Assembly (NCBI GenBank): GCA_017303935.1
Contig: JAFLBD010000001.1
Span: 868,001 to 932,000, forward strand
Length of the DNA: 64,000 nt
Direction of reading: 5' to 3'
DNA from: Armatimonadota bacterium
Lineage (GTDB): Bacteria > Armatimonadota > Fimbriimonadia > Fimbriimonadales > Fimbriimonadaceae
Part shown: one piece after another, positions 5,549 to 30,467 of the stretch
Layout: each line of letters starts with the position of its first letter
Position numbering within the stretch: the first letter of the stretch is position 1
The notes under the pieces: generated by a model
The model's input: only the letters and a program-made list of their open reading frames with translations
Told to the model about the DNA's origin: nothing
The model's database searches: none
Position numbers and translations under genes: made by a program

Positions 5549-5585
5549 CAGTGTTTGAGTCTCCACATAGCTGACGCCATTGAAT

Positions 5586-6508: not shown

Positions 6509-8095
6509 TTACTGGCATGAAAAGTCTAAGCTTTGTCTTATCTGCTCTTGGAGCTTTGTTGACTCATTGAACTGCTCTTCGAGCGTCTCCCGAAGCCTCG
6601 CGAACTTGACGGCGAATTCTTCCCCGTCGTCCTCGACGGCTTCGGAGCCGCAATAACGACCAGGAGTGAGCACGAAGTCGCTTTTGGCTATCTCCTCGCG
6701 AGTGGCGGACTTGCAGAAGCCGGGCACGTCCTCATAGGCTCCGTCCAGGGTTCCTCGCCATCGGTGGTAGGTGTCGGTGATCCGGGCAATCTCCTCATCC
6801 TCGAACATCCGGTGAGTTCGGTCTTCTAGGTAGCCAAGCTTTCCGGCGTTGATGAAGAGAGTCTCGCCCTTGCGATTCCGGAATCCCTTCCCCGCTTTGT
6901 TCTTGGCGAGGAACCAGAGGCAGACGGGGATACCGGTCGAGTAGAAGAGTTGACCGGGAAGAGCGACGATACAGTCGACCAGGTCCTCCTCCACCATCCT
7001 CCGCCGAATGTCTCCCTCTCCCGACTGTTGGGAGCTGAGGGAGCCGTTGGCCATAACGAAGCCCGCGAAGCCGTCCTCGTTGAGGTGGTAGAGGAAGTGT
7101 TGAATCCAGGCGTAGTTCGCGTTCCCGGCGGGAGGAACCCCTAGCCTCCATCGGGGATCATCGCGGAGGAGCTGACCGCTCCAGTCGGAGTCGTTGAAGG
7201 GCGGGTTGGCGATGACGAAGTCAGCCCGGAGGTCGGGGTGAGCATCCCGGAGGAAGGAACCCTCGGGGTTCCACTTGATGTCCCCGTCGATCCCATGGAC
7301 GGCAAGGTTCATCTGGCAGAGCCGCCAGGTGGTCTCGTTGCTCTCCTGCCCGTATACGCTTATGCCCTTGGGGTTGAACATGCCCGGCTGTTTGCGGGTG
7401 TGCTCGCGGATGAACTTCTTACTTTGGACGAACATGCCGCCGCTTCCGCAACAAGGGTCGAAGACCCGACCCTCGAACGGCTCCAGCATCTCGGTAAGGA
7501 TTCGGACCACGACCGGGGGAGTGTAGAACTGCCCGCCTCGTTTGCCTTCTAGGGAAGCAAAGCTCTTGAGGCAGTATTCGTAGACCCTTCCAACGACATC
7601 CTGCTCTGACTCGCTGTCGTCGTGTCGACCGGCCATGAAGTCGATATCGGAGAAGAGGTTGATAAGCTCAGTGAGGGTTCGGTCTTCGAGGGAGGGGCGG
7701 GCGTAGTTTCGATTGAAGACCGCTCTGAGGCTCGGATTTTCTTGTTCGAGCTGGTAGAGGGCGTCGTCGATGCGCTGACCGATCATTGGCTGAGTGGCGG
7801 TTGCCTGGAGGGTCTCCCACCGACTTTGAACCGGGACCCAGAAGACGCCTTCTCCGGCGTACTCATCCCGGTCCTCAAGGGTTCGCTGAATCGCGTCTTC
7901 ATCAAATCCGGTTTCAGGGGCTCGGAGCTCAGCTTCGAGGGCAGTTCGGCGGTGTTGGAAGGCGTCCGAGACGTATTTGAGAAAGATCAAGCCGAGAACG
8001 ACGTGCTTGTACTCCGCCGCGTCCATGTTTTTTCGCAGCTTGTCGGCAGCTTTGAAGAGCTTTTCCTCGAATCCTAAATTGGCTTGGTTTCTCAT
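6509..8095 (-). CDS. hsdM: Type I restriction-modification DNA methyltransferase HsdM
   Basis: 528 aa, the usual HsdM length. The N-terminal helical HsdM_N domain (1-~130) begins with NLGFEEKLFKAADKLRKNMD and AEYKHVVLGLIFLKYVSDAF. The N6-adenine methyltransferase domain has the AdoMet loop FDPCCGSGGMF (about 216-226) and catalytic motif IV IANPPFNDSDW (about 295-305). GKRGGQFYTPPVVVRILTEM is also typical. With HsdS it forms the M2S methyltransferase. It is the first hsd gene of the run and starts 19 bp below the end of the large glycosyltransferase gene, leaving no room for a clear promoter. Ribosome-binding signal before the ATG is weak. Both catalytic motifs are intact, so methylation should be functional. 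Confidence 0.95.
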   Translation of the reverse strand: MRNQANLGFEEKLFKAADKLRKNMDAAEYKHVVLGLIFLKYVSDAFQHRRTALEAELRAPETGFDEDAIQRTLEDRDEYAGEGVFWVPVQSRWETLQATATQPMIGQRIDDALYQLEQENPSLRAVFNRNYARPSLEDRTLTELINLFSDIDFMAGRHDDSESEQDVVGRVYEYCLKSFASLEGKRGGQFYTPPVVVRILTEMLEPFEGRVFDPCCGSGGMFVQSKKFIREHTRKQPGMFNPKGISVYGQESNETTWRLCQMNLAVHGIDGDIKWNPEGSFLRDAHPDLRADFVIANPPFNDSDWSGQLLRDDPRWRLGVPPAGNANYAWIQHFLYHLNEDGFAGFVMANGSLSSQQSGEGDIRRRMVEEDLVDCIVALPGQLFYSTGIPVCLWFLAKNKAGKGFRNRKGETLFINAGKLGYLEDRTHRMFEDEEIARITDTYHRWRGTLDGAYEDVPGFCKSATREEIAKSDFVLTPGRYCGSEAVEDDGEEFAVKFARLRETLEEQFNESTKLQEQIRQSLDFSCQ

Positions 8096-10961: not shown

Positions 10962-11806
10962 TTGCTGCCTCAGAGTTTACACTTGCGAGCCTGGTTCAAT
11001 CTAGAATCGATCATCAAACATAATCCTCTGAATCATTGAGCACGCTTGCTACGGATTGGATCACGTTAAGAATTCGCATAAAGTTGCGATTGTTCAATTG
11101 TGAGAGGCTCGTAGTATGGCGAAAAAGACCAAAACGGACGGAAGGACTTCTTAGCTCAAGATCGAAACTGGTCCGCACACCCACTAGATACGAGGACCCT
11201 GGCACTCATGCTCTCAAGGACTTTTTATATAAAGCGTCGTCGGTGAATTCAGCGTCGGTTGCTTGGCTGCCCTTGAAGACCAAATTCACGAGTATGTTCT
11301 CCTTTTTCCAAGTGTACGCGGACTCTATGCCATCCGCGTTGAGCCAAATCATGTTTCCGCTTGCGTTGTAAGTCGAAGACTCTGAGCTAGTGTTAGTCGT
11401 TCGGTCAAATCCTCAAATTGCCTACTCGTAAGACCTATCTGAAAGACTGTCATTGCGCTCAATTATAGCTGGAAAAAAACAATTGCGAAATATCCTTATG
11501 TAATTAAAGTGCAACGTTGATATCGCTTACAATATTCCGTCAGTGAATTAAGCATAAGAGACGATTGGCACGCCGAACTAAAAAGGCTCATAATAATCAG
11601 AATACAATAGATGAAATATTTAATTCAACGTTGCTGATTGGCGCACCAGTTGGTACTAAAAACTCTTTGAAGTGATGATACGTCCAATCACTACATTATC
11701 TCCACAATTCGGCAATAGAATCTAGCGTTTGCTAAATTTTTAGCTTGGAACAAGGAACTCGTCTGATACATCTAACAGGCAGAACTGATCGAAAAATGAA
11801 TCGATC
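10962..11806. other. AT-rich gap holding an RHS remnant
   Basis: No convincing gene. The right-hand part (11420-11800) is AT-rich with no coding signal; the middle (11228-11417) holds a decayed RHS fragment annotated separately. A 63-codon minus-strand frame at 11014-11205 has no ribosome site or recognisable motif. Confidence 0.5.
11228..11417 (-). pseudogene. Decayed RHS core fragment
   Basis: The minus strand reads SGNMIWLNADGIESAYTWKK followed by ENILVNLVFKGSQATDAEFT, matching the full-length RHS core (NGNMVWLVADGKESAYTWNK, then ENMLVNVVYKGTPETDAEFT). Upstream the DNA still matches the core through the GTTCGGTCAA stretch (about 11399-11408) and then diverges. It lacks a start, the rest of the core and a toxin tip. 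It is the leftmost and most eroded member of the displaced-cassette series, of the same core lineage (type A) as the full-length gene. Confidence 0.8.
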
Positions 11807-14579: not shown

Positions 14580-15824
14580 CTAGTAATAAATGGGGCTCGT
14601 CGGTGTCCGCCACCAATCGCCGGGCATACCGTTTGGGTTTGGCAACGGTCGAACAGGCTGGTTGGATGGCGGATTGTGTGGTCCAAATGTTCGATCTCCA
14701 CAGGTTTTACATCTTTCAATCGTGTTCCGCAGTTTCCATTTGGCAAACAAATATCCTAGCAAGATTTGGATTGTATCCTCTTTAGGATCCCACATGCCGG
14801 GAAAACCTCGCCACTTGGGCTTGATGCCCTTCATTTTATCAGACACATATTGGGCAATCGATGCACCAAGCAGAGCCGTTTCGATAGTCATCCCCATGCA
14901 TGCGGCCATTGCGCCGTAATGCCAGTTGCCAAAGTCTTCTAAAGGGTTCACCTGGCTTCCCCGATCATCAATCCTGATTTCTTTCGTCCGATCCTTATAA
15001 TCCCAAGGATGTCCCGTCAGAACCATTGAAATCCACCACCAAAAGTCAGCGCTCTGGTGACTCGCGGCAATACAGCAATTTTCCTCGATATCCACGTCAT
15101 TAGGCCAGTATTTTGGAACAATTGGGCTGCCAATTGGAGATTTGGTATACGGCGATGGTGGCCCAAAGATAGGTTGCATTCCAACGGCGTCTATCCAATT
15201 TGCCGGATTCCCAATCACGTATCCGTAAGCCAATTCATTCGGCCACAGGATATCTCTGCTAGTCCACTGTTTCGTTCGGCTCGAATAGTGCCTGTTCCAA
15301 TTGTACTGCTCGGCATAAGGAACGCCGGTATGCCGCGAGCCAGAATTGCCTGTCCAGCCCCATTCGAACTGGTTGCAAAAAAGCAAAGTCCCGTAAGGCG
15401 AGTACCGTGCATCGCGCTTCACGGAGCCCGAAGCATTGGTGACGCCAGTTACTGAACCCAACGCATCGACCAAATAGTCAACGCGGATGTCGCTATCAAC
15501 GAGTTCAGCAATCGCGACACCATCCACATTTAGGCGAGCAGTTTTGAGGTCCGTTCCAACCGGTGTAGACCCCAAGTATTGGCCGCCATCCCATCCGAGA
15601 ACAAGATCCTCCGGAGCAGAACTGACGCTCTCCAGAACCTTCTGGTTGAAAGCGTTGTAGGTGAATTCGGCGTCGGTTTCTGGGCTGCCTTTGTAGACCA
15701 CATTCACGAGCATGTTCTCCTTGTTCCAAGAATACGCCGATTCTTTGCCATCGGCGACCCGCCAAATCATGTTTCCGTTTGCGTCGTAAGCGTAAGACTC
15801 CGATGCAGAACTTGCTTTCAACAC
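14580..15824 (-). CDS. Displaced RHS tip cassette 2 (type A core)
   Basis: 414 codons from a GTG. Residues 8-~210 reproduce the end of the full-length RHS core almost exactly (YAYDANGNMIWRVADGKE, DLVLGWDGGQYLGSTPVG, RVDYLVDALGSVTGVTNASG, AYGYVIGNPANWIDAVG). The tip of about 200 residues is different: it has ENCCIAASHQSADFWWW, a hydrophobic helix (MAACMGMTIETALLGASIA), ERCKTCGDRTFGPHNPPSN and a proline-rich end with MPGDWWRTPTSPIYY. The core match begins at SESYAYD (15805), after which the upstream DNA is unrelated. It lacks the N-terminal YD-repeat body, so it is an orphan tip that could become active by recombination into the full-length gene, with which it shares long near-identical DNA. 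Confidence 0.78.
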   Translation of the reverse strand: MLKASSASESYAYDANGNMIWRVADGKESAYSWNKENMLVNVVYKGSPETDAEFTYNAFNQKVLESVSSAPEDLVLGWDGGQYLGSTPVGTDLKTARLNVDGVAIAELVDSDIRVDYLVDALGSVTGVTNASGSVKRDARYSPYGTLLFCNQFEWGWTGNSGSRHTGVPYAEQYNWNRHYSSRTKQWTSRDILWPNELAYGYVIGNPANWIDAVGMQPIFGPPSPYTKSPIGSPIVPKYWPNDVDIEENCCIAASHQSADFWWWISMVLTGHPWDYKDRTKEIRIDDRGSQVNPLEDFGNWHYGAMAACMGMTIETALLGASIAQYVSDKMKGIKPKWRGFPGMWDPKEDTIQILLGYLFAKWKLRNTIERCKTCGDRTFGPHNPPSNQPVRPLPNPNGMPGDWWRTPTSPIYY

Positions 15825-15844
15825 TAAAGCAACTCACGCGGAGG

Positions 15845-16633
15845 TCAACCTTGCTCAACGCGACAGAACTGCATCGACAAATTTATGTTGTTCCAATCAA
15901 CAATTTGGTTCAGGGTATCAATATCTATCCGAACATCGCACAGCTCCATTGATTTGATTGCCGGGTACCGACTCAAGCAAAGCACATCATTGGTTACACG
16001 CAGTGCGGAGAGGGACAAATGCTCTAAATTCTCGAGAGTTAGCTCTAGAGCCTCTTTGGCACGTTGCTCGGAAGTAAAGACATTTAGCTCCTTCACGCTC
16101 TGATGATCTATTGAACGGATCAGAGATTTAGACGACGTAGTCCAAAATCGCACTGAGCGGGCATGAACTCTCTTCTCAGTACACGAAATACTAGTGCCCA
16201 TAAGTAAGGCCAGCGACTTAAACTCCAGGCAATTGCCGTATAGTGCAGTCTTGCATTTCTTAAGGGTCAGATGGAGCAGTTTCCTTGCTTCTATATGCAG
16301 ATCCAATTTGACCGAAGTATCAGCAAAGATACCGAGAATGTCAATTCTATCTGCCTTAATCTTCAAATCGAGGTTGGGCCTGCGTTCAATAGTAACATTG
16401 AGGAACCTAACACTTGACATGCCTACGTCAATGTTGATCGGACTCTCTGCAGAACCTGAAATCACGACTTCCAATTCATAAATCCGTGATACCATCGAGC
16501 TAATGGAATCGCAAAAGGCCTTCAGCAAATGAAGATGTGCCGCCTCGATAGAAACGGATAACTTCTCATTAGACTTCAATTGAAGAGCGAGTGAATTCGA
16601 ATCGCTAGAAGGATGCACTTTGAGTTGGATCAT
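15845..16633 (-). CDS. Immunity candidate for displaced RHS tip 1, leucine-rich
   Basis: 262 aa. The ATG at 16633 overlaps the stop of the RHS tip 1 gene (ATGA), strong evidence of a toxin-immunity pair. The product has regular alternating hydrophobic strands as in leucine-rich or beta-solenoid proteins (VSRIYELEVVISGSAE, RFLNVTIERRPNLDLKIKAD, LLHLTLKKCKTALYGNC, LEHLSLSALRVTNDVL) and ends with IVDWNNINLSMQFCRVEQG. The end matches that of the protein at 11807-12643. No signal peptide or TM. A longer frame starting at 16663 lies within the toxin gene. A protective role is inferred from position. Confidence 0.68.
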   Translation of the reverse strand: MIQLKVHPSSDSNSLALQLKSNEKLSVSIEAAHLHLLKAFCDSISSMVSRIYELEVVISGSAESPINIDVGMSSVRFLNVTIERRPNLDLKIKADRIDILGIFADTSVKLDLHIEARKLLHLTLKKCKTALYGNCLEFKSLALLMGTSISCTEKRVHARSVRFWTTSSKSLIRSIDHQSVKELNVFTSEQRAKEALELTLENLEHLSLSALRVTNDVLCLSRYPAIKSMELCDVRIDIDTLNQIVDWNNINLSMQFCRVEQG

Positions 16634-17790
16634 TTCTGTTTCCAGCGGCCCTTGGAACCGCAATTGCAGTTCATCTTGACTTTACCGGTTTTCAGGTCAG
16701 TGCAGTAGCAACAAGTGATAGTATAGTACATACCATTTGAGATAAATTTGTAATGGGTTCCTTTGCATCTATCCGCTGGTACTCCATTTGACTTTCTAGG
16801 CTTGCGTCCTCTGAGGTCCGGCCAACATTTGAGCAATGCTCGATAAGGGTCACCTTCCCGATTTTCTGGACACGGATTACAGGCACAGCAAGCGCCGACT
16901 TCCGAGGGAGAAGGTGGAGAACATGGCTTAACGGTATAACACCTGTTGTGAGGTTGTCCAAATGCTATTTGGCAAAACGTCTTACAACCTAGTATCATCG
17001 CTTCATTGCAGATGCCTCTAGTTTTACTCGGATCAATACAATCCGGGTGCAGTCCATCTGATGGAACCACTACCTGAAGTCCACTAGGATCAAGCCTAGT
17101 CACCGGATTTCCACTTACATACCCATACGGATGCTCACTCGGCCAGAGTGGATCGCGGGTGGTCCAGATATTTGTGGTCGTCGAGTAGTGTCTCGCACGG
17201 TTATACTGCTCGGAATACAGCAGGCCCGTGTGCATGGAACCAGTGTTGCCAGTCCATGCAAAGTCAAGAGGCTTCACAGAATCCCCTGAAAGCAGTTCAC
17301 CAAACGGCTTGAACCTCCGCTCGGAGCCGAGGTCCCCCTTCTTATTAGTTTGGCCAGTCACCGAACCCAAGAAGTCCACCACGTAGTCCATCCTCGACTG
17401 AGAATCGGCCGGATTGAACTCTCCCAGCATCGTGCCGCGATCCCCAATGAAGATCTTTACGGCATTCTCAGGATCATTCGCCGCATCCGCAAATCCGTAG
17501 TAGTCATCCCCATCCCAGGTGAACAGAGTATCTGAACCTGGGTTGGTTTCACGCTTCTTTTGTCCAAAAGCGTTGTAGACCATAGTCGTTTCTACGCCAG
17601 GATTGCTCTCAGAACTGTAGAAAATCAGGCGATTTTCTGTATCGTATACAAATTCCGACTTGACATCGTCTACCGCGGTGAGGTTGCCATTCGCATCGAA
17701 CGTGTAGGTGCTACCGTCGGAAGAAGACACCATCCGACTCGCCGCGTCATAAACCCGCGTCACGACACTTCCTGTTTCCGAGCTGCTCAA
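16630..17790 (-). CDS. Displaced RHS tip cassette 1 (type B core, Cys-rich toxin tip)
   Basis: 386 codons from a TTG; the RHS reading frame is open to about 17828 (YRGFFDSRDNILSSSETG). Core part: YDAASRMVSSSDGSTYTFDA, FTWDGDDYYGFADAAND, GSVTGQTNKKG, HPYGYVSGNPVTRLDPSG. This is the type B core also seen in cassette 3 (110 of 112 bases identical over 17521-17632 versus 13501-13612) and different from the full-length gene's type A. The tip (about 235-386) is rich in Cys pairs: CSPPSPSEVGACCACNPCP, DRCKGTHYKFISNGMYYTI, TCCYCTDLKTGKVKMNCNC. GTHY...G...ITCC.C is shared with cassette 3. Activity unknown; metal binding is plausible from the cysteines. Confidence 0.78.
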   Translation of the reverse strand: MSSSETGSVVTRVYDAASRMVSSSDGSTYTFDANGNLTAVDDVKSEFVYDTENRLIFYSSESNPGVETTMVYNAFGQKKRETNPGSDTLFTWDGDDYYGFADAANDPENAVKIFIGDRGTMLGEFNPADSQSRMDYVVDFLGSVTGQTNKKGDLGSERRFKPFGELLSGDSVKPLDFAWTGNTGSMHTGLLYSEQYNRARHYSTTTNIWTTRDPLWPSEHPYGYVSGNPVTRLDPSGLQVVVPSDGLHPDCIDPSKTRGICNEAMILGCKTFCQIAFGQPHNRCYTVKPCSPPSPSEVGACCACNPCPENREGDPYRALLKCWPDLRGRKPRKSNGVPADRCKGTHYKFISNGMYYTITCCYCTDLKTGKVKMNCNCGSKGRWKQK

Positions 17791-18315: not shown

Positions 18316-21300
18316 TCAGAAGCCGCTACACCACCAATCGTATTGCGCCATGCACAGTTTACAGTGATGCTCTCCAGAATCAATACATATCTCAGCACAT
18401 CTTTTAAATAGTTCGTCACAACCCTTAGTTGTTAAGATTCGGCAAGCGTCTCTGCAATAGGGTCTCGCCCAAGTCTTTAGTCCCGGGGGATACTTTTTCA
18501 CACACTCACCATAACAGAGTTTTTGTCCATTAGGACCATCAAGCCGACCAGCAGGAAAGTCAGTTTGCAAGATTGGAGGGAACCACCCAGGCAACTGACA
18601 TTCTTCTTGACCAAATACAGGCGAATCGCAATCAACATTGCTATTAGAAGCTTTCTTACAGTACAAGCAAGCTTCTTTAGGAGATATATCCAGTCGTGCT
18701 CTTATTTTCTGGTAGCACCACCAGAATTTGGGTGCACGCGCCGTGCCACCTGGAGGTTTCGGCCAGCTCGGAGGTGATGGTGGCTCCGGTTGATGTGTCG
18801 GCAAAGAAGGCAACGGAGCAGTTGGTGCTGGCGGGGGTACGGGAGGTAAAGGTATAGGAATCATGATTTGCCCCGGCGCAGCCACGATCCCTCCTAGATA
18901 CGGATTCCAAGTCCAGCCTGTGAACCGTATCCGACCATTGGCGTCTACCCAATTCGCCGGATTCCCGATCACATACCCATAAGCATTCTCGCTAGGCCAA
19001 AGTCCATCCCTGCTAATCCACTGCTTTGTGCGGCTCGAGTAGTGCCGATTCCAATTGTACTGCTCGGCATACGGAACGCCGGAATGGCGCGAGCCAGTGT
19101 TTCCGGTCCAGCCCCATTCGAACTGGTTGCCAGAAAGCAAGGTGCCATATGGCGAGTACCGTGCATCGCGCTTCACGGAGCCCGAAGCATTGGTTACGCC
19201 AGTCACTGAACCCAGCGCATCGACCAAGTAATCAACGCGGCCTTCGCCATCAACGAGTTCAGCAATCGCGACACCATCCACGTTTAAGCGAGCGGTCTTG
19301 AGATCCGTCCCGACCGGAGTTGATCCTAAGTATTGGCCTCCGTCCCACGCGAGAACAAGATCCTCCGGAGCAGAACTCACGCTCTCCAGAACCTTCTGGT
19401 TGAAAGCGTTATAGGTGAATTCGGCGTCGGTTTCTGGGGTGCCTTTGTAGACCACATTCACGAGCATATTCTCCTTGTTCCAAGTGTACGCAGATTCCTT
19501 GCCGTCGGCGACGAGCCAGACCATGTTTCCGTTGGCGTCGTAAGTGTAGGACTCTGTACCCGAGCCAGTCGTTCGGTCAATCAATCGACTAGCGGCGTCG
19601 TAAGTTTGAACCACTACCTCGCCCTCTTCGCTTGATGTCAGAATATTGTCTCTCGAGTCGTACGTGTAGGTGAAATTGTGTTCCAGGGTACCGCTGGTTT
19701 CATCTTGGATCAGGCGATCTTTAGCGTCGTAGGTGTAAGTTGTGATGTTGTCGAAGTTATCACTCCAATCCAGAACCGTCTTTCGATTGCCATTTGGATC
19801 GTACGTATAGGTGAATATTTGAATTGAACTGCCAAGCTTCGAATCGGTGAGCGCAAGCACTCTGCCATCGGAATCATAGGAAACGGATTGCACTCTTTGG
19901 CTTGGGAGTTGCGTCGCAGTCTTAAGCCCGCGGTTGTCATAAACCATCGTAGTTCTGAGACTAGAATTGTCGATGACGCAAGAAGTTCTACCATCGCTGT
20001 CGTAGGTGTAACTAATGATTCTTCCTGCGACATCCGTCTTCGCAAGAACTTCGTTCGCGCTGTTAAATGCGGTTGCGACCGACTGCCCCATGAAGCCTTC
20101 ACGATAAGTCTCTCGACTCAACGCGTCAAAGGACATTAATGTAGTTCCGCTGGAATCAGTTAGGGTTGTGAGATTTCCTCGCGTGTCGTACTGCATGGTG
20201 ACGCGCGATGAGTCGGCATACAGTGTCGCAATTGCCTGCCCAACATTGTCATACGAGTACGTGGTGACATCTCCGTTGGCGAAGCGGCGCGTGGTGGTCT
20301 GCCCAGAGCCGTCATAGGTGTATGTCGTTCGCTGATTCAGTTGATTGGCGATGGCGGTCATCGCGCTCCTGGCGTCGTATGCCATCGTGATGCGGCCGCC
20401 AGCAGGATCGAGAATTTCTACCTGCCGACCGTCAGCATCATACGAGTAGGTGGTTCGGAATCCGAGAGCATCCACGCCCGCAATGGTCTGCCCAGCGGCA
20501 TCATAGACCGTGGTGCTCACGAATCCGCGTGGATTCTTGGTCTCGATAGGCCTGCCCGCGCCATCGTACGATATCGTGGTCCTGAATCCGAGAGGCGTGA
20601 CGCTCGCGATCTGTTGTCCAGCGGCATCGTACTCGGTGCTCCATGTGAAGCTCCCGCTGTCAATCATTGCAACCGCTTGACCAGCGGCATCATAAATCGT
20701 GGTGGTGCGGCGTCCGGACGGGAGCACTCCTGCGATGACTCGGCTGGCTGCATCGTAAACCGTGGACGACGTTCTGCCGAGAGGATCAGTTGTGGCCACC
20801 TGGCGGCTCATGCCATCGTAGGTCAAGGTCGTGACGGCTCCGATTGCATTCTTGACCGCCCAGGTTCGCCCGGCAGAATCATAAATAGTGGTCGTGAAGT
20901 TCCCGGCTGGGTCCTGCACCGAAACTTGTTGACCTGCGACGTTGTAGGTGTAAGTCGTTCGGCGGCTGAGCGCGTCTAATTGAGCAATAGCGCGGTTGCT
21001 ATTGCTTGAATATACAGTGGTAGAGCGGTGGCCTAGGGCATCCTGGACGTCGATGACGTTGCCAGCGGGGTCGTACGAATAAGTCGTTCGGAACCCGAGT
21101 TGGTCGATGCTTGCAAGCGTTCTTCCGGCGGCATCAAATACCGTCGTAGCGCGGAATCCCATCGGCGAAACGGTCGCAATTTGTCTTCCCGCGGCATCAA
21201 AGACGTAGGTCGTGACGCGGCCGAGAGGATCTTGAGACGCAATTGGGCCACGAGCATCGTAAATTGTGGTTGATCTTTGACCAAGTGCATTGACCTGCGC

Positions 21301-23028
21301 AACGGTTCGCCCGCCGGCGTCATAAACGGTTGTGGTCCGATTGCCGTTAGGATTGATCGTCGCGGTTTGTCGCCCCATCGAGTCGTAAACCATGGTGGTG
21401 ACGAACCCGAGCGGATTCTTCATCTCGGTGAGATTGCCCATCGAGTCATAGGTGTACGTCGTGGTATTTCCGAGTTGGTTCTTCGACGTTGCTGGCTTGC
21501 CGAACCGGCTATAGGTCATCGTCGTGCGATTTCCGAGCGGATCAACTTGAGCCTGGAGCAAGCAACCGGAGTAAATTTGCCGCGACATCTCGCCTGCCGC
21601 ATTAGTCATTGAAATGATGTGGTTTGCGGCGTCGTAAGCTGTGGTGGAAGTGCGCCCGAGCGGATCACTGGCACTCACACGGCGGTTCAGATTGTCGTAG
21701 GTGTAGCTAGCAATGCCTCCATCGCTGTAGATAGTGGAGCAAAGGTTGCCTTTGGCGTCGTAGCTGTGCGTCGTTTTGAGGTTCCTCGGGTCAGTGACAG
21801 ATTTCAGTGTTCCGTCAGAATTCCAGGAGTAAGTCGTGATCCTACCGAGAGGATCCATCCGACTTGTCATTCGGCGGTTTGCATCGTAGGTCATCGTGAC
21901 CTTGTTGCCGAGCGGGTCCTCTACTTGGACTAGGTTGTTCGACGCATCGTAGGACATTTGCGTCGTGTTGCCTAGCGCATCTTTGCTCGTAAGTGGCTGG
22001 TTGAAGCTGTTGAGTGTAAGGCTTACAATGTCGCCGTACGGCATGGTCTCGCGCACTTTTCGAGATTCGGCGTCGTAACCGATCGTGACACGGCATCCGT
22101 CTGGGAGCACGGTGGTTCCGGGCCTACCTTGTGCATCCTGCATGTAGGTCGTGATGGCTCCATTAGGCGCAGTGACACTAGTTGAAGTTGCCCCCTCGAA
22201 AGTTAGATCATAGGCGTAATTCCAGGTCGCTCCACCCATTGTAGCGGAGAGCATTTTGCCACCGGAATCAAAAGCGTATGTGACAGCGAAACCGTTCGGA
22301 TCCTGAATGCGCGAGAGCATCCCGCCGGTGTACTCGTACTCGGTCGTACATCCACTCGGAATTTGCTCACTGATGAGCTGACCATCGACGTCGTACGTCA
22401 TGGTCCAACGGCGATCCGCCCAGTCTTGAATGTAGGACACCATCCCATTCGCGTCGTAGCCGAACGTCACACGGTCCCCACCAGGCACGACAATGCTGCT
22501 TAGTACTTGGGAATCGTACGTGTAGGTGTGGATGTTGCCCGATGGGTCCTCGATCTTAAGGATGTTGTAGCGACCCGTGCTCGCTAGATCTGGACCATAA
22601 GTGATTTTCTTTCCGTCCGCGAACGTTTCAATGAAGTTCGTACCGTCCCAGGTCAACAGCGTTCCACTGTATTGAGCCGCGTCCGATGTGTATGTGGAAA
22701 TCGTGCCAGAAGTGTGAGTACCCGTGAATTTATAGGAGGTGAGGTCTCCCCGGAGGATAGTGACGCTCCCAGTATCCGGAATGAGTTGGGCCTGTACATT
22801 ACAACTGCGTTTTAATCCCCAAGGGTATGCAACTGCCCTCGATGATGCCGAGTTGTAATAGGTGCTGATCTGAACTTCAAAGCCTTTTGCCTGGAGCCGA
22901 ATCTCAGGGTCGATCTTTAGCTCGCCCGAAAATGGGTCCGCCAGAGGATTCGGGAGAAGCTCTCTTTCGGTTGGTTGAAGCGTGCCCAGACGCTCAGCTG
23001 TTGGTTGTTCCCAGGGAAAAAATCGCAT
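18316..23028 (-). CDS. Full-length RHS/YD-repeat polymorphic toxin
   Basis: 1570 aa from the ATG at 23028. The body (about 100-1300) is an array of YD repeats (e.g. TTYSYDPAGNVIDVQDALGH, RTTYTYNVAGQQVSVQDPAG) that in this family form a hollow beta-shell around the toxin. The RHS hyperconserved region closes at about 1340-1370 with RHYSSRTKQWISRDGLWPSE and AYGYVIGNPANWVDANG. The ~205-residue tip has a Pro-rich linker, then a Cys-rich domain (EACLYCKKASNSNVDC, YCRDACRILTTKGCDELF, KRCAEICIDSGEHHCKLC). No Sec signal, so export would need a dedicated route not visible here. It is translationally coupled to the upstream 83-aa gene (TAATG). Toxin activity is not recognised. A longer start at 23067 would overlap that gene. 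Confidence 0.92.
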   Translation of the reverse strand: MRFFPWEQPTAERLGTLQPTERELLPNPLADPFSGELKIDPEIRLQAKGFEVQISTYYNSASSRAVAYPWGLKRSCNVQAQLIPDTGSVTILRGDLTSYKFTGTHTSGTISTYTSDAAQYSGTLLTWDGTNFIETFADGKKITYGPDLASTGRYNILKIEDPSGNIHTYTYDSQVLSSIVVPGGDRVTFGYDANGMVSYIQDWADRRWTMTYDVDGQLISEQIPSGCTTEYEYTGGMLSRIQDPNGFAVTYAFDSGGKMLSATMGGATWNYAYDLTFEGATSTSVTAPNGAITTYMQDAQGRPGTTVLPDGCRVTIGYDAESRKVRETMPYGDIVSLTLNSFNQPLTSKDALGNTTQMSYDASNNLVQVEDPLGNKVTMTYDANRRMTSRMDPLGRITTYSWNSDGTLKSVTDPRNLKTTHSYDAKGNLCSTIYSDGGIASYTYDNLNRRVSASDPLGRTSTTAYDAANHIISMTNAAGEMSRQIYSGCLLQAQVDPLGNRTTMTYSRFGKPATSKNQLGNTTTYTYDSMGNLTEMKNPLGFVTTMVYDSMGRQTATINPNGNRTTTVYDAGGRTVAQVNALGQRSTTIYDARGPIASQDPLGRVTTYVFDAAGRQIATVSPMGFRATTVFDAAGRTLASIDQLGFRTTYSYDPAGNVIDVQDALGHRSTTVYSSNSNRAIAQLDALSRRTTYTYNVAGQQVSVQDPAGNFTTTIYDSAGRTWAVKNAIGAVTTLTYDGMSRQVATTDPLGRTSSTVYDAASRVIAGVLPSGRRTTTIYDAAGQAVAMIDSGSFTWSTEYDAAGQQIASVTPLGFRTTISYDGAGRPIETKNPRGFVSTTVYDAAGQTIAGVDALGFRTTYSYDADGRQVEILDPAGGRITMAYDARSAMTAIANQLNQRTTYTYDGSGQTTTRRFANGDVTTYSYDNVGQAIATLYADSSRVTMQYDTRGNLTTLTDSSGTTLMSFDALSRETYREGFMGQSVATAFNSANEVLAKTDVAGRIISYTYDSDGRTSCVIDNSSLRTTMVYDNRGLKTATQLPSQRVQSVSYDSDGRVLALTDSKLGSSIQIFTYTYDPNGNRKTVLDWSDNFDNITTYTYDAKDRLIQDETSGTLEHNFTYTYDSRDNILTSSEEGEVVVQTYDAASRLIDRTTGSGTESYTYDANGNMVWLVADGKESAYTWNKENMLVNVVYKGTPETDAEFTYNAFNQKVLESVSSAPEDLVLAWDGGQYLGSTPVGTDLKTARLNVDGVAIAELVDGEGRVDYLVDALGSVTGVTNASGSVKRDARYSPYGTLLSGNQFEWGWTGNTGSRHSGVPYAEQYNWNRHYSSRTKQWISRDGLWPSENAYGYVIGNPANWVDANGRIRFTGWTWNPYLGGIVAAPGQIMIPIPLPPVPPPAPTAPLPSLPTHQPEPPSPPSWPKPPGGTARAPKFWWCYQKIRARLDISPKEACLYCKKASNSNVDCDSPVFGQEECQLPGWFPPILQTDFPAGRLDGPNGQKLCYGECVKKYPPGLKTWARPYCRDACRILTTKGCDELFKRCAEICIDSGEHHCKLCMAQYDWWCSGF

Positions 23029-23279
23029 TAGTTTAACTTTGCCTGCGCGAACGAGATGTCGATACATGGGCCGGAGCCGTCATTCATGATTCCTGGCGCG
23101 TAACTGGATGGCGAACTTGGCGAATGGCCGGGATAAAGGCCCGGAGGAATTGGAGAGTTGCCACCCGACTTTGTGGTGCATCGAGAGGCATTCTGACCTC
23201 CAGGGCCTCCTTCGTTTGAACACGAACAAGGATTGCTGGCGGGGCAAAACCCAGTTGGTCCTGTTCCAGGGACGTCCAT
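23028..23279 (-). CDS. Small Gly/Pro/Cys protein coupled to the RHS gene
   Basis: 83 aa. GGAGG lies 9 nt before the ATG and the stop codon overlaps the RHS start as TAATG. The product has six cysteines in its first half and end (FCPASNPCSCSNEGGPGG, SRCTTKSGG, GPCIDISFAQAKLN) and long Gly/Pro/Ser-rich linkers (PIPPGLYPGHSPSSPSSYAP). No signal peptide or TM. The strong ribosome site and the coupling argue that it is real. It might be an adaptor or loading partner for the RHS protein (inference); no family recognised. Confidence 0.6.
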   Translation of the reverse strand: MDVPGTGPTGFCPASNPCSCSNEGGPGGQNASRCTTKSGGNSPIPPGLYPGHSPSSPSSYAPGIMNDGSGPCIDISFAQAKLN

Positions 23280-23346: not shown

Positions 23347-23697
23347 TTACTTCGCGAGTGCGGCCCGAATGGCGTCAACCACTCTTTGCGGACAATCTTC
23401 TTTGCCTTCAGGGATCTCCCCGAGCAAAACCGCGATGTCATGCTCGTTTACACTTAGTGCAACCTGAACAGACTTCCCTGCCAACAAACTTGCTACGACG
23501 CTCGACGAAGCAATCGAGGTTGGGCAACCATTTGTCTTGTACCGACATTCCATAATGCTGCTGTCCGCCACGCGAAACCAGAGCTCGACATACGGACCTT
23601 CACCTGGTACTCCAGAGACACCGTAGTGCGTGGAGCCCTCCATCGGTCCAATGTTTCGCCTCGTATTTATGTGGTCAAGTGCCAGAGCCGAGAACAT
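23347..23697 (-). CDS. IscU/NifU-N-like Fe-S scaffold homologue, first ligand Cys absent
   Basis: 116 aa. The start at 23697 (MFSALALDHINTRRNIGPME) matches the opening of IscU-type scaffolds; a 57-residue upstream extension does not fit the family. Two of three ligand regions are visible: TNGCPTSIASSSVVASLLAG and KEDCPQRVVDAIRAALAK. The first, usually around A-C-G-D, here reads GVPGEGPYVELWF without cysteine or aspartate. So either it is a divergent subfamily or it does not assemble clusters in the standard way. No cysteine desulfurase is nearby. A TATACT box lies just upstream of the start. It is alone, between the RHS operon and a divergently transcribed gene. Confidence 0.75.
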   Translation of the reverse strand: MFSALALDHINTRRNIGPMEGSTHYGVSGVPGEGPYVELWFRVADSSIMECRYKTNGCPTSIASSSVVASLLAGKSVQVALSVNEHDIAVLLGEIPEGKEDCPQRVVDAIRAALAK

Positions 23698-23842
23698 CAG
23701 TTGTGTGTAGTATAAGTGATCCGTGAAAAAATGTGTTGAAGAAAATGATAAATTTTCAAAATCGCACAGTCGTCTTAACATTGGGCCTAGAAACAAGCTC
23801 AACCTCGCTGTCTCGAATCTGCCAAAGTGAGATCCAATTGCG

Positions 23843-24538
23843 ATGAAAAGCCTTACGATCGAGACCAAGGTATGGAACGGTGATTGGCAAGTGGTCTTGA
23901 ACCCTGAACGCCTGCGCCTGACTTTTGAGCTGAATCCGGGTAATTACCACCGCCGCGTTTTAATCAACAATGTGGATGACCTTCCGAAAGTTAAGGAGCA
24001 TGCCGACCGCCTCGTAAGAATCGGACTCGTGCACGAGATTGTAGTCGTCGCTGAGCACATTGAGCCCGCGCTGAACCATTTCAATATCTCGAAAGAATCC
24101 CTGGGAAAGGGTTTTGTCTACTCTAGCGCAGAGCTTGTCGGACTGTACACTTGCACGACAGAGTTCTTGTGCCACTACGCGAGCGACTGCTGGAATTTGC
24201 ACATCTCAGATTGGTGCAGTCGTGGAATGGACCTCCTCAATTCTGATCCAGAAATCTCTGTCGTAAATCCGCTCTGGAACGGTGAATACAATATGGCTCT
24301 CCTCGAGACGATCAGCAGGCGGGGAGTCTATGGGATCGGATATGGATTCTCGGATCAATGCTATTTGGTCAGGACTAAAGAGATATTAGGAGCCGACCTT
24401 AATCTTCGGCACTTTGCTTCCTCTAGGTACCCAGATTACGGTGGCGAGCTTTTTGAAAAGCGAATCGACTCGTGGATGAGGACTCACGGAAGATTTCGAG
24501 CCAACGATTTGTCGGCCACATACTTTCATAAGGCCTAA
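23843..24538 (+). CDS. Protein of unknown function, glycosyltransferase-like features
   Basis: 231 aa, divergent from the IscU-like gene. Opening MKSLTIETKVWNGDWQVVLN and VLINNVDDLPKVKEHADRL alternate strands and helices; later LISDWCSRG-like, ISVVNPLWN, YGFSDQCYLVR and LFEKRIDSWMR motifs appear. From memory such proteins (opening with T-K-V-W-x-G-D-W and containing I-N-N-V) occur in glycan gene clusters and may have a GT-A-like fold, but no catalytic DxD is evident, so I do not assign activity. No membrane segment. Length and codon pattern look like a genuine gene. Confidence 0.65.
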   Translation: MKSLTIETKVWNGDWQVVLNPERLRLTFELNPGNYHRRVLINNVDDLPKVKEHADRLVRIGLVHEIVVVAEHIEPALNHFNISKESLGKGFVYSSAELVGLYTCTTEFLCHYASDCWNLHISDWCSRGMDLLNSDPEISVVNPLWNGEYNMALLETISRRGVYGIGYGFSDQCYLVRTKEILGADLNLRHFASSRYPDYGGELFEKRIDSWMRTHGRFRANDLSATYFHKA

Positions 24539-24826: not shown

Positions 24827-25054
24827 TCAACTCTCTGACAAGTATCCGAGCTTCTGCTGAATCCATCGATCGAGTTCGGAGCGTGAGATTCTTCGAAGGC
24901 GGCCTATTTTCAAGGTCCTCCATTCCCCCTCTTTAACGAGCGTGTAGGCGGTCGTTCGGCCTATTCCTAGCAGATGGGCTGCTTCTTCGATGGTGAGGAG
25001 CAGTTTTTCGTGATTTTCAATGATAGTTGGCAAGAAATTGGTTTTTGTTTGCAC
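24827..25054 (-). CDS. Excisionase-type (HTH_17/MerR-like) DNA-binding protein
   Basis: 75 aa from a GTG. The core LLTIEEAAHLLGIGRTTAYT followed by LVKEGEWRTLKIGRLRRISR and SELDRWIQQKL is the winged helix of the excisionase/HTH_17 family, which bends DNA at attachment sites or controls the promoters of integrative elements. It is divergent from another HTH gene across a 263-bp region with repeated CGGTCGTTTA motifs, a likely operator array. The integrase is 2.7 kb to the right. Confidence 0.85.
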   Translation of the reverse strand: MQTKTNFLPTIIENHEKLLLTIEEAAHLLGIGRTTAYTLVKEGEWRTLKIGRLRRISRSELDRWIQQKLGYLSES

Positions 25055-25317: not shown

Positions 25318-25560
25318 ATGAGACAATTAAATAAATCTCTACGAACGACTTCGGACACTGGCAATCGAATCTCGTTGACACCAAAGGAGTTTGCGGAGCT
25401 AGCATGTCGACACATCGGTGAAGTTTATCGACTGATTGCTTCAAAGTCTGTTCTCACGGTTAAAGTTGGAGCAATCCACTTAATACCGATCAGCGAGATA
25501 GATCGAATCTTCTCGTCCCCAGCTTCGGGTTCCGACAATCAAGTGGAGGTTGGGCTATGA
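25318..25560 (+). CDS. Small HTH DNA-binding protein of the integrative module
   Basis: 80 aa. ISLTPKEFAELACRHIGEVY, RLIASKSVLTVKVGAIHLIP and ISEIDRIFSS follow the excisionase-like winged-helix plan (recognition helix, wing, closing helix). Its stop overlaps the ATG of the RepA-like gene (ATGA), so it is coupled to it. A small DNA-binding protein in front of a RepA-type ATPase is a common order in integrative elements and plasmids. No ribosome site is visible; the start lies 7 nt after a TCGTTTA repeat. Confidence 0.7.
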   Translation: MRQLNKSLRTTSDTGNRISLTPKEFAELACRHIGEVYRLIASKSVLTVKVGAIHLIPISEIDRIFSSPASGSDNQVEVGL

Positions 25561-26975
25561 GCGAGCACGAGGATTTCAACTCCGACCCACGAGATAAGGA
25601 ATGCATTCCACCAGAAGTGCCGGAAATCGCATATAGCGACCCCGGTTCAGATAACGACGTTGGCGACATTGCAGATCAACACTTGCAAGCTGTCGGACCA
25701 GAGTCACCAACGAAACCACATGGCGAAGGGACCATGGATGAGCGCGGTGGATATGAATACCTTAGAGATGTTGATGCCATTGTCGACCGCATGCTTGACG
25801 AGGGCCTGCAAGAGATGGAGCGCTATGCACAGCGCGACCTTCTGCCAGCGGCTGGGCTGCCACCATCGACGACGGTATGGCTCTGGGAAGGGTACATCAT
25901 GCGTGGCAAAGTGACAAACGTTGAAGCTAAGGGTGGGTCGGGTAAATCCCGGCTCATCCTGGGCATCGCTGCTGGGCTATCGCTAGGCGTGTGGCCGTTT
26001 ACTTCGGACTCGGCAACCTCAGTCACGTGCAAGCCTGGGAAAACCCTGATCCTCACATCAGAAGATACCCCTGAGGAAATCACCGACACGTTTAAGTAGG
26101 CTGGGGGCGATGTAAGCAAGTTGTTCTTCTACAATCCGAGAATTCCTGGAGCACTCGTGCTGGATGAGATGGGAATCGACCGGCTCCAGGAGTTGGTGGC
26201 GATGAACAACATCGACATGGTGGTTCTGGATCCCGTGCTCGAGTTCGTGCCCAAGACGCTGACCAGCCAGAACGACAACACGGCGATCACCAAGTTTCTC
26301 GCATCGTTGCGGAATGTGGCCGCATCGACCGGATGCGCCATTGTCTGCGTGAGGCACTTCTCCAAAGGCATGGCTGGCAAAGAAGTCCATGAGATGGCGG
26401 CCGGCGGCGAAGCGTGGCGCAATGGTGCCCGTGGCCAGTTCGTCCTCTTCGCACATCCCGAATGCCGCGCTGGATGGACGCAGGTCATGGCAGTGCCAGC
26501 AAGAAACACGATGCGGGCCCAGTATGGCAAGCCGTTCGGTATCGAGATCACAGAAGGGCGGCAAACCTTTGTTGCTCCACATGTGCTCAATGTCGAAGCG
26601 TATTGCGAGGCGTACGAGGCCCTAGCAAAGCATCTTGGGAAGGTCCATCTCGAAATACATGTCAAAGCACGTGGGCGCAGGCCAGCTCGCCAATTTGAGT
26701 GTGCGAAAGCAATAGCCGAGATATTGGAGAAGTGCCCTGGACGCAATATGAGCCAACTCAACATGCGCCAGATGTTAATCCACCAAGGATTCCAGCAATC
26801 GCTGATTTACCGTACTCGCAATTCAATGATCGTTGCTGGCATTCTAAAAGATACTGGCGTGGACTGGGCACTGACCGATAACTACGACCCGTTCGCCGAC
26901 GACGTGATTCCAGAAAATCCCCCGGGAATTGGCACTCAGTCGACGTTTACACATTACTGGCAGGACCAGGATTAA
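25557..26975 (+). pseudogene. RepA/AAA_25-type replication ATPase interrupted by one in-frame TAG
   Basis: One reading frame of 472 codons split by an amber codon at 26097-26099. Before it: an acidic N-terminal region and the P-loop VTNVEAKGGSGKSRLILGIA (about 120-135), then LILTSEDTPEEITDTFK. After it, in the same frame: AGGDVSKLFFYNPRIPG, a Walker-B-like strand IDMVVLDPVLEFVP, CAIVCVRHFSKGM and a C-terminal winged-helix-like part. In the family this join normally reads 'SEDTP...R...AAG.D', so only one residue is lost to the stop. All else is open, which means a very recent nonsense mutation, a base error, or read-through. The protein would be a hexameric helicase-type ATPase for element replication. 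Confidence 0.82.
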
Positions 26976-27777: not shown

Positions 27778-28938
27778 CTAATCTAAGGAACCTGAATCGA
27801 GGACCCGCTCTAGCACCGATGTTGCTTTACGCTGTGCCTCCGAAACTCCGTGAGCGTAAAGGTTAGCGGTCAAGCTAATCTGACTGTGCCCAAGTTGTTT
27901 CATCACTTGATGAAGCTCCACCCCTCCAGCGACCATGAGCGTTGCCGCAGTATGTCTTAGCTTATGGAAACTCATCGGAGGTAATCCTGCCGATTTTAGG
28001 ACGGATTTTAGGTGGACTTCAACGTTTTTGGGATCCAATGGTCTTCCTTTAGAATTGAGGAATATGTAGCCTTCTTCTGGGGCCCAACCGTTCAGTAATT
28101 GCTCGGCTTTCACGCTCTGAAGCGCTCTCTCACCGATTTCACCTAACGAGATTTCACGTCGGCTAGATTCGCTCTTAAGAGACTTTAGTATCAACTTTCC
28201 ATCAATTCGTTGTAGTTGGTTCCTAACCCGCACAGTTTTCGTGTTGAAGTCGATGTCGTCCCAAGTCAAGCCTGTCACCTCGCCGATTCGCAAACCAGTC
28301 ACAAGCGTAAACTCAAAGAGCGGACCAAGCCGATTCTGTTTTGCTGCGACTAGGAATTTCTTAGCAGCGCTCGGCCCAAGAAACCTTGTTTCAGACCTCT
28401 CGACCTTGGGGGTGCTCACCCTAGATGCAGGGTTTTGCTCAATCAGGCCCGTTTTCCAAGCCTGGGCAAGTGCTGCTCGGAGGGTCGCCCGCAGCCCTCG
28501 AATGAAATAAGCCGAAAGCCCCTCGGCCAGCTTCTCGTTCAAGAGCTTTTGAATCTGGTTGGGTGTTAGCTTGCGCACTGGGACTTTGCCGAGTGCAGGA
28601 ACAAGATGGAGCCTGCAGTACGCTTCGTAGTATCGATACGTTTTGGGCTCTCGGTGTGGAAGTACGTACTGGGAGAGCCAAACCTCAAGCCACTGCCCTA
28701 GAAGCATCTCCTTTGAGCTAGCGGAGATCCGCCCTGTATCGACCTTTGACTTGTAATCCTGGACCAGTGCAAGGACAGCCGCCCTCGAAACTCCGTAGAA
28801 GCTCTTTCTGATCGGGTTGCCAGAGTCGTTGTAGCCAATGACGATCCGACTTTCCCACCTGCCGTCCGCTCTCTTTGCGATAGAGTATCCATCGGGTCGT
28901 CGGACACGCTTTCCATTCTGCTTCGTACCGTCACTCAC
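27778..28938 (-). CDS. int: Tyrosine site-specific integrase
   Basis: 386 aa, normal for phage/ICE-type integrases. N-terminal arm-binding domain (RRPDGYSIAKRADGRWESRI, about 12-50), core-binding SAM-like domain (EMLLGQWLEVWLSQY and on, about 78-170) and catalytic domain. Catalytic residues visible: Arg in TGLRIGEVTGLTW (about 216), His-x-x-Arg in SFHKLRHTAATLMV (about 322-327), His in LGHSQISLTANLYAHG (about 350) and the Tyr nucleophile 9-10 residues on. All are intact, so it should be active. It is transcribed away from a tRNA-Thr 3' fragment located 170 bp upstream of its start, the typical integrase-next-to-att layout. Confidence 0.95.
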   Translation of the reverse strand: MSDGTKQNGKRVRRPDGYSIAKRADGRWESRIVIGYNDSGNPIRKSFYGVSRAAVLALVQDYKSKVDTGRISASSKEMLLGQWLEVWLSQYVLPHREPKTYRYYEAYCRLHLVPALGKVPVRKLTPNQIQKLLNEKLAEGLSAYFIRGLRATLRAALAQAWKTGLIEQNPASRVSTPKVERSETRFLGPSAAKKFLVAAKQNRLGPLFEFTLVTGLRIGEVTGLTWDDIDFNTKTVRVRNQLQRIDGKLILKSLKSESSRREISLGEIGERALQSVKAEQLLNGWAPEEGYIFLNSKGRPLDPKNVEVHLKSVLKSAGLPPMSFHKLRHTAATLMVAGGVELHQVMKQLGHSQISLTANLYAHGVSEAQRKATSVLERVLDSGSLD

Positions 28939-29110
28939 AGTTCAATAGTACACTAAAATCCTGACGGCAGAGATGCAGAATTTGACGGCAGAGATGACGG
29001 CAGAGCGTGCGAACTTTGGCGTACAAATCCGGACATGCATGTATGCTTTGAACTCAAATCGGCCTTCATATCGAGACGATTCCTAGGTTCAAAACAAGAA
29101 CATCGTCTAA

Positions 29111-29155
29111 TTTGTAAACAGCGGGTCGCGGGTTCGAATCCTGTTTCCGGCTCCA
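29111..29155 (+). tRNA. 3' fragment of tRNA-Thr(UGU), attachment site of the island
   Basis: Reading TTTGTAA (anticodon loop with UGU), ACAGC (3' anticodon stem), variable loop, T-arm GCGGG-TTCGAAT-CCTGT, acceptor strand TTCCGGC, discriminator T and encoded CCA (29153-29155). The 5' half is missing: no GCCGGAA acceptor strand, D-arm or 5' anticodon strand occurs in the preceding 40 nt. Such a half-gene beside an integrase is the duplicate att site left when an element inserts into the 3' half of a tRNA gene. The complete tRNA should lie at the other end, not in this window. Confidence 0.75.
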
Positions 29156-29186
29156 TTCCCTTTCGAGACCTCTCAAGGTTCTCAAA

Positions 29187-30467
29187 TCAGCCTTTGGCTT
29201 CGATCAACTTCTCGCTGACTGCAGAGTCCACTCCGCTCAGTCTGTGGCGCTGATTCCACACGATCAATGCGCCAATCAACACGATAAGGCCACCCAGCCG
29301 CATCGCCGTCGCCACCCCATATTGCTGCGCAACATATCCAAATAGCGGCAGGGCGATCGGACCGGCTCCACTCAGCGCCCAAATATGCATTGTTAGAACT
29401 CTTCCCCTCAGCCGATCTGGCGAGAGAATCTGAAATAGCGTATTCGTCGTGTTGAACTGCATGATCGCCGACATCCCACATAAGCCAAGCGAGATGAGAG
29501 CGACCGTGTAGTTGTGTACGGTGCTTGCGGAGATCAACGCGATACCAAAGGTCAGCATCGCCGCTTTGACGACAAATCCTTTGATCGGTCGGTTGGAAAA
29601 CGTGATCAATGTCGTCAATCCAATCATCGCTCCGATTCCGATTGCCGTGTAGAGGTTGCCTAGACCGGATTCTTTGAGCCGGAGAACGTCTTTTGCAAAC
29701 GCGGGGAGCAGTGGCAAATAGGCCAATCCGAAAACGGACAACGTGCACTCCATCAGCCAAAGTGTTCGCAATTGAGTGTTCTTCCATGTGTACCGAAACC
29801 CCTCAATGAACAGGTCGATCACGGGCTCGGTTCGCGGTTTAAAGCTGCTCAGGTTTGCCTTGATAGCGATGACGGCGAAAACAAGCGCCATGTACGAAAG
29901 TCCATTGACCACATAACACGCTTGGGCACCGATCCGCTGGAGCAATATTCCGCCAATCGCCGGGCCGATGATTCGAGCCATGTTAAAGGTCATGGCCTGC
30001 ATCGGCACTGCCGCGGAAAGGTGTTCGCTCGGGACAATATTGGAAACCAACGACTGACGGCACGGCATCTCGAAAGTGCTCGCGATGCCGTTGACTGTGG
30101 CGATGACCAGGATGTGCCAATACTGGATGAAACCGAAATAAACCGCGCTGGCAATAAACAGTGCGTTGAATCCAAATATCAGTTGGGAGATGATCAGGAC
30201 TTTGCGCCGGTCCAGGTTATCGGTCAATGAACCGGCAAACGGTCCAAGAATCGAGACTGGCAACATCGAACAGAAGCTCACCATAGCGAGCTTGGCGCGG
30301 TCGTGTGTGAGCTCGTAGACGAAATAGCCTTGGGCGACGGTTTGGACCCAAGTGCCGACAAAAGAAAAAAATGCGCCGATCCAAAACAATCGGAAATCGG
30401 CAATTCGGAAGGGGGCGAGTTGCTGGGAAGATTTTATTCGCTCAAATCTTCCCGCAACGTGTCGCAT
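29187..30467 (-). CDS. MFS transporter (MFS_3/EntS-like)
   Basis: 426 aa with about 12 hydrophobic helices. The loop after helix 2 carries the MFS motif A (GSLTDNLDRRKVLI, about 80-93), and MTFNMARIIGPAIGGILLQR (about 160) is the motif seen in the MFS_3 exporters such as EntS. It opens with FRIADFRLFWIGAFFSFVGT, typical of this group. Transport by proton antiport is expected; the substrate cannot be told. First gene of the backbone to the right of the island boundary, ending 31 bp from the tRNA fragment; divergent from the WaaA-like gene. Confidence 0.9.
   Translation of the reverse strand: MRHVAGRFERIKSSQQLAPFRIADFRLFWIGAFFSFVGTWVQTVAQGYFVYELTHDRAKLAMVSFCSMLPVSILGPFAGSLTDNLDRRKVLIISQLIFGFNALFIASAVYFGFIQYWHILVIATVNGIASTFEMPCRQSLVSNIVPSEHLSAAVPMQAMTFNMARIIGPAIGGILLQRIGAQACYVVNGLSYMALVFAVIAIKANLSSFKPRTEPVIDLFIEGFRYTWKNTQLRTLWLMECTLSVFGLAYLPLLPAFAKDVLRLKESGLGNLYTAIGIGAMIGLTTLITFSNRPIKGFVVKAAMLTFGIALISASTVHNYTVALISLGLCGMSAIMQFNTTNTLFQILSPDRLRGRVLTMHIWALSGAGPIALPLFGYVAQQYGVATAMRLGGLIVLIGALIVWNQRHRLSGVDSAVSEKLIEAKG

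Follow-up and report, generated by a model that had tools for sequence, protein, structure and literature searches.

Evidence for a 35,017-bp integrative genomic island with restriction and Rhs-toxin genes in a tRNA-Thr(UGU) gene

Half a tRNA gene lying beside a tyrosine integrase gene raises the question of whether the two mark one end of an integrated element and, if so, where the other end lies and which genes belong to it. We addressed this question for a locus in the window, the 64,000-nucleotide stretch C1:868001-932000 of a 2.56-Mb genome of 4 contigs (G000; positions given without a contig are those of the window). The comparison set comprised 61 genomes, this one and 60 relatives, among them 36 family relatives that include four congeners (G001-G004). 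The evidence points, almost with certainty, to a 35,017-bp integrative genomic island that carries restriction and Rhs-toxin genes and is inserted in the gene for tRNA-Thr(UGU).

An earlier note had described a 45-nt tRNA half, running from the anticodon loop to CCA about 170 bp from an intact integrase, and had found neither a second copy nor a complete tRNA-Thr to its left in the window. Both observations are confirmed: the half tRNA lies at 29111-29155, 172 bp from the start of the integrase ORF, a 25-mer taken from it has a single site in the window at up to three mismatches (0 in 100 shuffles), and ARAGORN calls no tRNA-Thr there. The sole ARAGORN call in the window, a tRNA-Leu(CAG) at 26153-26246, falls within the AAA_25 gene discussed below and was taken as a false positive, and no Rfam family reaches its gathering score in the window. 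Across the whole genome a 36-mer of the half has exactly two sites at up to three mismatches (C1:862103-862138 and C1:897120-897155), both on the + strand and both perfect, with 0 control matches. The left site is held by a complete tRNA-Thr(UGU) at C1:862064-862138 (ARAGORN), which is the tRNA-Thr(TGT) with the same 45-base end that the earlier note had suggested looking for to the left of the window. Counting the T that follows the half, the identity covers 46 bp that start in the anticodon loop and stop one base after CCA, and the copies diverge immediately beyond both edges. The copy at 29111-29156 (+ strand) is thus supported as the duplicate att that had been proposed, namely the displaced 3′ part of tRNA-Thr(UGU) (attR), identical to its partner at C1:862094-862139, which lies beyond the window as the 3′ portion of the intact tRNA. 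Since there are two identical 46-bp copies, one of them within an intact tRNA, the island is placed at C1:862094-897110 (35,017 bp counting one repeat copy); its left end lies 5.9 kb to the left of the window, and its portion within the window, delimited by the repeat copies and the genome search, spans 1-29110 (no strand assigned). An element of more than 29 kb that includes the Rhs and hsd loci, one of two possibilities left by the earlier note, is what the 35,017 bp between the copies bear out.

The tRNA-gene islands catalogued in Islander (PMC4383910) share this arrangement: a rebuilt tRNA at one end, a 3′ fragment in the same orientation downstream, a tyrosine integrase inside and an att in the anticodon loop. 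Among the features of the Islander definition we found the intact tDNA at one end, the integrase gene within the interval and the 3′ fragment in the same (+) orientation 35,017 bp downstream of the tDNA. Islander counts 3919 islands, of which 3760 have a 3′ fragment and 2083 have anticodon-centred sites (PMC4383910). Unlike the Islander-type layout given there, the integrase gene lies here at the fragment end, its start towards the fragment, and not beside the rebuilt tRNA. The island is an ordinary and cleanly mapped one, with every defining feature of tRNA-targeting islands that was open to testing; the more notable points are the integrase at the fragment end, a relic that is probably a sibling, and the variety of tRNA genes targeted by the integrase lineage.

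The site was compared with the same region in relatives. The right flank of the island is a host gene for an MFS transporter (29187-30467, - strand), and in all of G001-G004 the match to this protein comes within 1-2 bp of where the matched tRNA-Thr(UGU) half ends; each of the four matches crosses one stop codon, which puts the true gene end slightly earlier. The MFS gene adjoins tRNA-Thr in 12 of the 36 family relatives, the four congeners included, and by coordinates the tRNA half and the MFS match lie at most 81 bp apart also in G005, G007, G011, G014, G019, G020, G028 and G036. To the left of tRNA-Thr a 133-aa gene is conserved in G001, G002 and G004; G003 is without it, and there the next gene out, a peroxiredoxin by eye, precedes the tRNA. 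Two further genes to the left (peroxiredoxin and CBS-domain by eye) are present in G001, G003 and G004. Judged by gene order, the site is uninterrupted (empty) in 4 of 4 congeners searched, whose divergence (MFS 53-57% identity) prevents a view of the empty site base by base outside the tRNA. The comparison with island-free relatives that had been suggested thus finds tRNA-Thr and the MFS gene side by side in four congeners, and this gene order, together with the intact tRNA-Thr that lies 35,017 bp further left and shares the 46 bp, refutes the second possibility of the earlier note, that the left end had been lost. An intact tRNA-Thr unrelated to this region, with the hsd and Rhs loci syntenic in relatives lacking the integrase, would have spoken against an island and was not what we found.

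The integrase (27778-28938, - strand; 386 aa) matches Phage_int_SAM_3 and Phage_integrase (E 2.3e-29) and contains the motifs TGLRIGE, HKLRHT, LGHS and LYAHG, which we take to hold the catalytic R, H-x-x-R, H and Y. Among solved structures it matches 2kkp, 3nkh and 6emy/6en0 best, of which 6emy is presumably Tn1549 Int. In sequence similarity to these structures and in its two domains it resembles the Tn916/Tn1549-type Int and the SAM_3-type phage integrases; it differs from them in that its island showed no conjugation family among the ORFs scanned, targets a tRNA gene and has a repeat sequence of its own. For Tn916 Int, binding to direct repeats close to either end has been described. Between the integrase gene and attR lie three exact copies of TGACGGCAGAG (28962, 28983 and 28995, spanning 28962-29005; + strand), and two more exact copies lie within the left end (C1:862196 and C1:862208). 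From this layout, two on the left and three on the right, the repeats are probably integrase arm sites. At one mismatch TGACGGCAGAG has 4 sites in the window against 1.45 expected, a number reached by 6 of 100 shuffles, and 4 sites in the left stretch against 0.41 expected, reached by 0 of 200 shuffles; since the window count is within reach of shuffling, we count the exactness and the placing of the repeats, and not their number in the window, as evidence. TTGACGGCAGAG has five exact sites in the genome, three at the island ends, one at C3:309890 behind tRNA-Thr(CGU) and one elsewhere, with 0 control matches.

We considered TAGGTTCAAAA, present at 29084-29094 (+ strand) and at C1:862144-862154 just within the left end, as a second arm-site motif but did not adopt it: it adjoins both island cores but is common in the genome. 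The pattern TAGRTTCAAAA is enriched (19 genome sites versus 1 for the reversed control; contexts were read for 12 of the 19, across 10 stretches), and TAGGTTCAAAA follows 24 tRNA-like 3′ ends in 18 of the 61 genomes with 0 control matches. In the same search, TAGGTTCAAA is the motif behind the tRNA-like ends of these 18 genomes. An 11th stretch read, at C2:863 kb, holds one of these tRNA-like ends instead of one of the 19 sites. At C3:332300-332800 TAGGTTCAAAA occurs twice, 206 bp apart, and each copy has two TATTTGATGG-like repeats on either side; the segment resembles att arms without a tRNA.

Within the island, a terminator-like hairpin (C1:862151-862176) starts 12 bp behind the rebuilt tRNA. 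A terminator scan over 600 bp gave 2 sites versus a mean of 0.8 in shuffles, the second site lying within the tRNA. The hairpins of the island's left end and of a relic on contig 3 reach -13.5 and -15.6 kcal/mol; for comparison, the 45 bases behind the tRNA in the four congeners give -6.7 to -11.4 kcal/mol and those to the right of attR here -10.3 kcal/mol.

This relic (C3:309100-310032) lies behind tRNA-Thr(CGU). At C3:309.9 kb it is 86.8% identical over 136 bp to the left end of the island, about half of this being tRNA, and the hairpin and TTGACGGCAGAG stand at the same distance from the tRNA as in the island. The relic hairpin is that of the island with a G-U pair as G-C. After it the relic has 247 bp that match the Rhs gene of the island at 88% identity. 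In G001, G003 and G004 another gene, lipoprotein-like by eye, lies directly behind tRNA-Thr(CGU). A degenerate pattern allowing 2 mismatches, one of which is already spent on this tRNA, revealed no second 3′ half of tRNA-Thr(CGU). The contig-3 sequence is probably the decayed left arm of a sibling element.

What the island carries falls into a restriction part, an Rhs part and a right-end group of genes. The type I restriction system comprises HsdR (C1:862423-865575, left of the window), HsdS (1487-2686, - strand) and HsdM (6509-8095, - strand), with a GmrSD-type protein between HsdS and HsdM (3659-5656, - strand), and is followed by a cargo gene for a family 2 glycosyltransferase with TPR repeats (8115-10961, - strand). 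To the left of the window the island also holds an AlbA_2 protein, a 101-aa ORF without family match (HigB-like by eye) and an HTH/M78-peptidase protein (L003:14726-15802) that matches PD-Lambda-2_B, a component of the PD-Lambda-2 defence system, at 3e-41; its neighbours at L003:13572-14810 and 15792-16097 matched no PADLOC model. The Rhs part contains a gene for a 1583-aa Rhs protein (18316-23067, - strand), an ORF with an Rhs repeat and an Rhs-associated core domain (an orphan tip; 16630-17790, - strand) and a protein with a C-terminal Ntox44 toxin domain, the first part of whose gene is similar in DNA to the Rhs gene (an orphan Rhs tip; 14580-15824, - strand). DNA similarity to the Rhs gene marks three stretches (11204-11408, 15186-15800 and 17100-17256), which together form an orphan Rhs tip array; ORFs with different C-termini contain two of them, and the third falls outside any recognised gene. 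Orphan Rhs tip arrays have a known general layout, and the island is like them in having a full Rhs gene, then two ORFs with Rhs-like DNA, one of them ending in Ntox44, and a third Rhs-like stretch; the likeness is one of general layout. A protein with a NifU-like Fe-S scaffold N-terminal domain (23347-23868, - strand) lies beyond the Rhs gene.

Towards the right end, a 75-aa HTH_17 protein (24827-25054, - strand) resembles excisionases and other phage HTH proteins and is a possible Xis. An 80-aa ORF without family match (25318-25560, + strand) directly precedes the AAA_25 gene (25557-26975, + strand), which would encode a replication-type ATPase and contains an in-frame TAG (26097-26099), with AAA_25 domain matches on both sides of it. 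Searching the 61 genomes with the second half of this gene gave 2 weak matches besides its own, both in open frames (637 and 581 aa) with room for both halves, the alignments starting behind the stop. Compared with a satellite-type (P4/PICI-like) module, the right end offers candidates for the integrase, the regulator and the replication gene; its AAA_25 gene, however, is broken by the stop, and nothing helper-related was recognised. By base composition the island hardly differs from its surroundings (GC 0.550 in its left 6 kb and 0.511 in the remainder; flanks 0.518 and 0.529).

Taken together, these features suggest how the insertion may have arisen. A circular form of the element would bear an attP with a copy of the tRNA 3′ half, and the tyrosine integrase would recombine it with the host tRNA, with the crossover presumably within the anticodon loop; anticodon-loop integration sites were reportedly treated by Williams in 2002. 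At the left end (attL), tRNA-Thr would then be rebuilt with the element's 3′ half, and the original host half would come to lie 35 kb to the right as attR, the half-tRNA fragment. The terminator-like hairpin directly behind the rebuilt tRNA is carried by the element. The 75-aa HTH_17 protein may act as the excisionase. Excision of the island may still be possible, but with an in-frame stop in the AAA_25 gene it is doubtful that the island can replicate or transfer by itself, and its present mobility is likewise doubtful. We saw neither a circular junction nor a genome from which the island had been excised.

Three other accounts of the locus have to be weighed. The strongest, though an unlikely one, is that two islands, a defence half and an Rhs half, entered the same tRNA in succession and that the att between them was lost. 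The GC of the hsd part (0.54-0.56 in the left 14 kb) versus that of the Rhs-tip part (0.45-0.49 at 10-20 kb of the window) is consistent with such a composite, as is the Rhs piece close behind the relic's left arm at tRNA-Thr(CGU); however, GC variation by itself is weak, the genome has no third copy of the 3′ half at up to three mismatches, and the 27 island ORFs scanned include a single integrase. Far less probable is a prophage or an integrative conjugative element in place of a plain genomic island. The integrase, the excisionase-like HTH protein and the AAA_25 gene are of kinds shared with phages, satellites and mobilizable elements, but none of the 27 island ORFs scanned (Pfam, E 0.001) matched a phage structural, packaging, relaxase or secretion-system family. 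In PHROGs, 10 island ORFs matched only integrase, excisionase/HTH DNA-binding, primase-type, NifU-like and unknown families.

The least credible of the three holds that the half tRNA is the leftover of a lost element and that the integrase has nothing to do with the hsd and Rhs genes. An arm relic without a partner does exist at tRNA-Thr(CGU) in the same genome, yet here the interval is bounded by an intact tRNA with the identical 46 bp, is missing between the same genes in four congeners and has matching repeats at both ends. A single island with both ends in place remains the preferred reading.

At E 1e-20 or better, homologues of its integrase number 25 places, spread over 17 of the 61 genomes, this one included; three or more of these places are pieces at contig ends in G052. 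At 10 of the 25 a tRNA 3′ half starting at the anticodon loop is present, with 142-213 bp between its T-loop motif and the integrase's aligned 5′ end, so that the right-end layout seen here is shared by 9 further loci in 6 relatives. The targets, with anticodons read by eye, are Thr(UGU) here, Lys(CUU) twice, Asn(GUU) five times, and Arg(UCU) and Thr(CGU) once each. Seven other places have an intact tRNA on the opposite side of the integrase (His, Lys five times, Arg), and the remaining 8 have neither a tRNA half nor an intact tRNA in the stretches read. A three-copy repeat separates integrase and tRNA in 7 of the 10 loci with a half (reached by 0-5 of 100 shuffles); at L103, L110 and L113 the repeat stays at chance level (46-79 of 100 shuffles reach it), which counts against the arm-site reading. 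The repeat sequence varies among members, that of G023 (TGACAGCAGA) resembling the island's. The homologues in G001 (38%) and G003 (30%) are distant and lie on other stretches, not at tRNA-Thr(UGU). A search of genome contigs gave 46 stretches and 28 relatives, all distant (24-31% identity) and mostly Bacillota judged by record title, and a search of viral contigs gave only distant ones in 12 of 12 stretches (25-33%).

The same tRNA gene is occupied in one relative and probably in a second. In G015 the 3′ part of tRNA-Thr(UGU) occurs twice, 39,250 bp apart, as an exact 50-bp repeat, with a different integrase beside the rebuilt tRNA; close to the right end of this element of about 39 kb (G015:C1:59728-99027) there is what by eye looks like a type I restriction locus. 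G030, with an intact tRNA-Thr(UGU) and an integrase on one contig and the fragment on another, probably also has an island in this gene, one that is not proven because its two ends are on different contigs. The integrases of G015 and G030 differ from that of the island (24% identity over 202 aa and 27% over 340 aa). G012, considered as a further carrier of the fragment, was rejected: it has two complete tRNA-Thr copies and no fragment.

What had been a half-seen boundary is now an island mapped exactly at both ends; gene order in congeners shows the empty site, the genome also holds what is probably a decayed sibling, and the restriction and Rhs-toxin genes are tied to one mobile unit. More tentatively, in a model that we hold to be possible rather than probable, one integrase lineage in this bacterial order may move among Thr(UGU), Thr(CGU), Lys, Asn and Arg tRNA genes by matching their anticodon loops, most members having an arm repeat of their own; the left end would give the rebuilt tRNA a new terminator and on decay leave an arm 'scar', as at tRNA-Thr(CGU). 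The loci assembled here form a compact set for the study of how integrases switch tRNA targets and arm sites.
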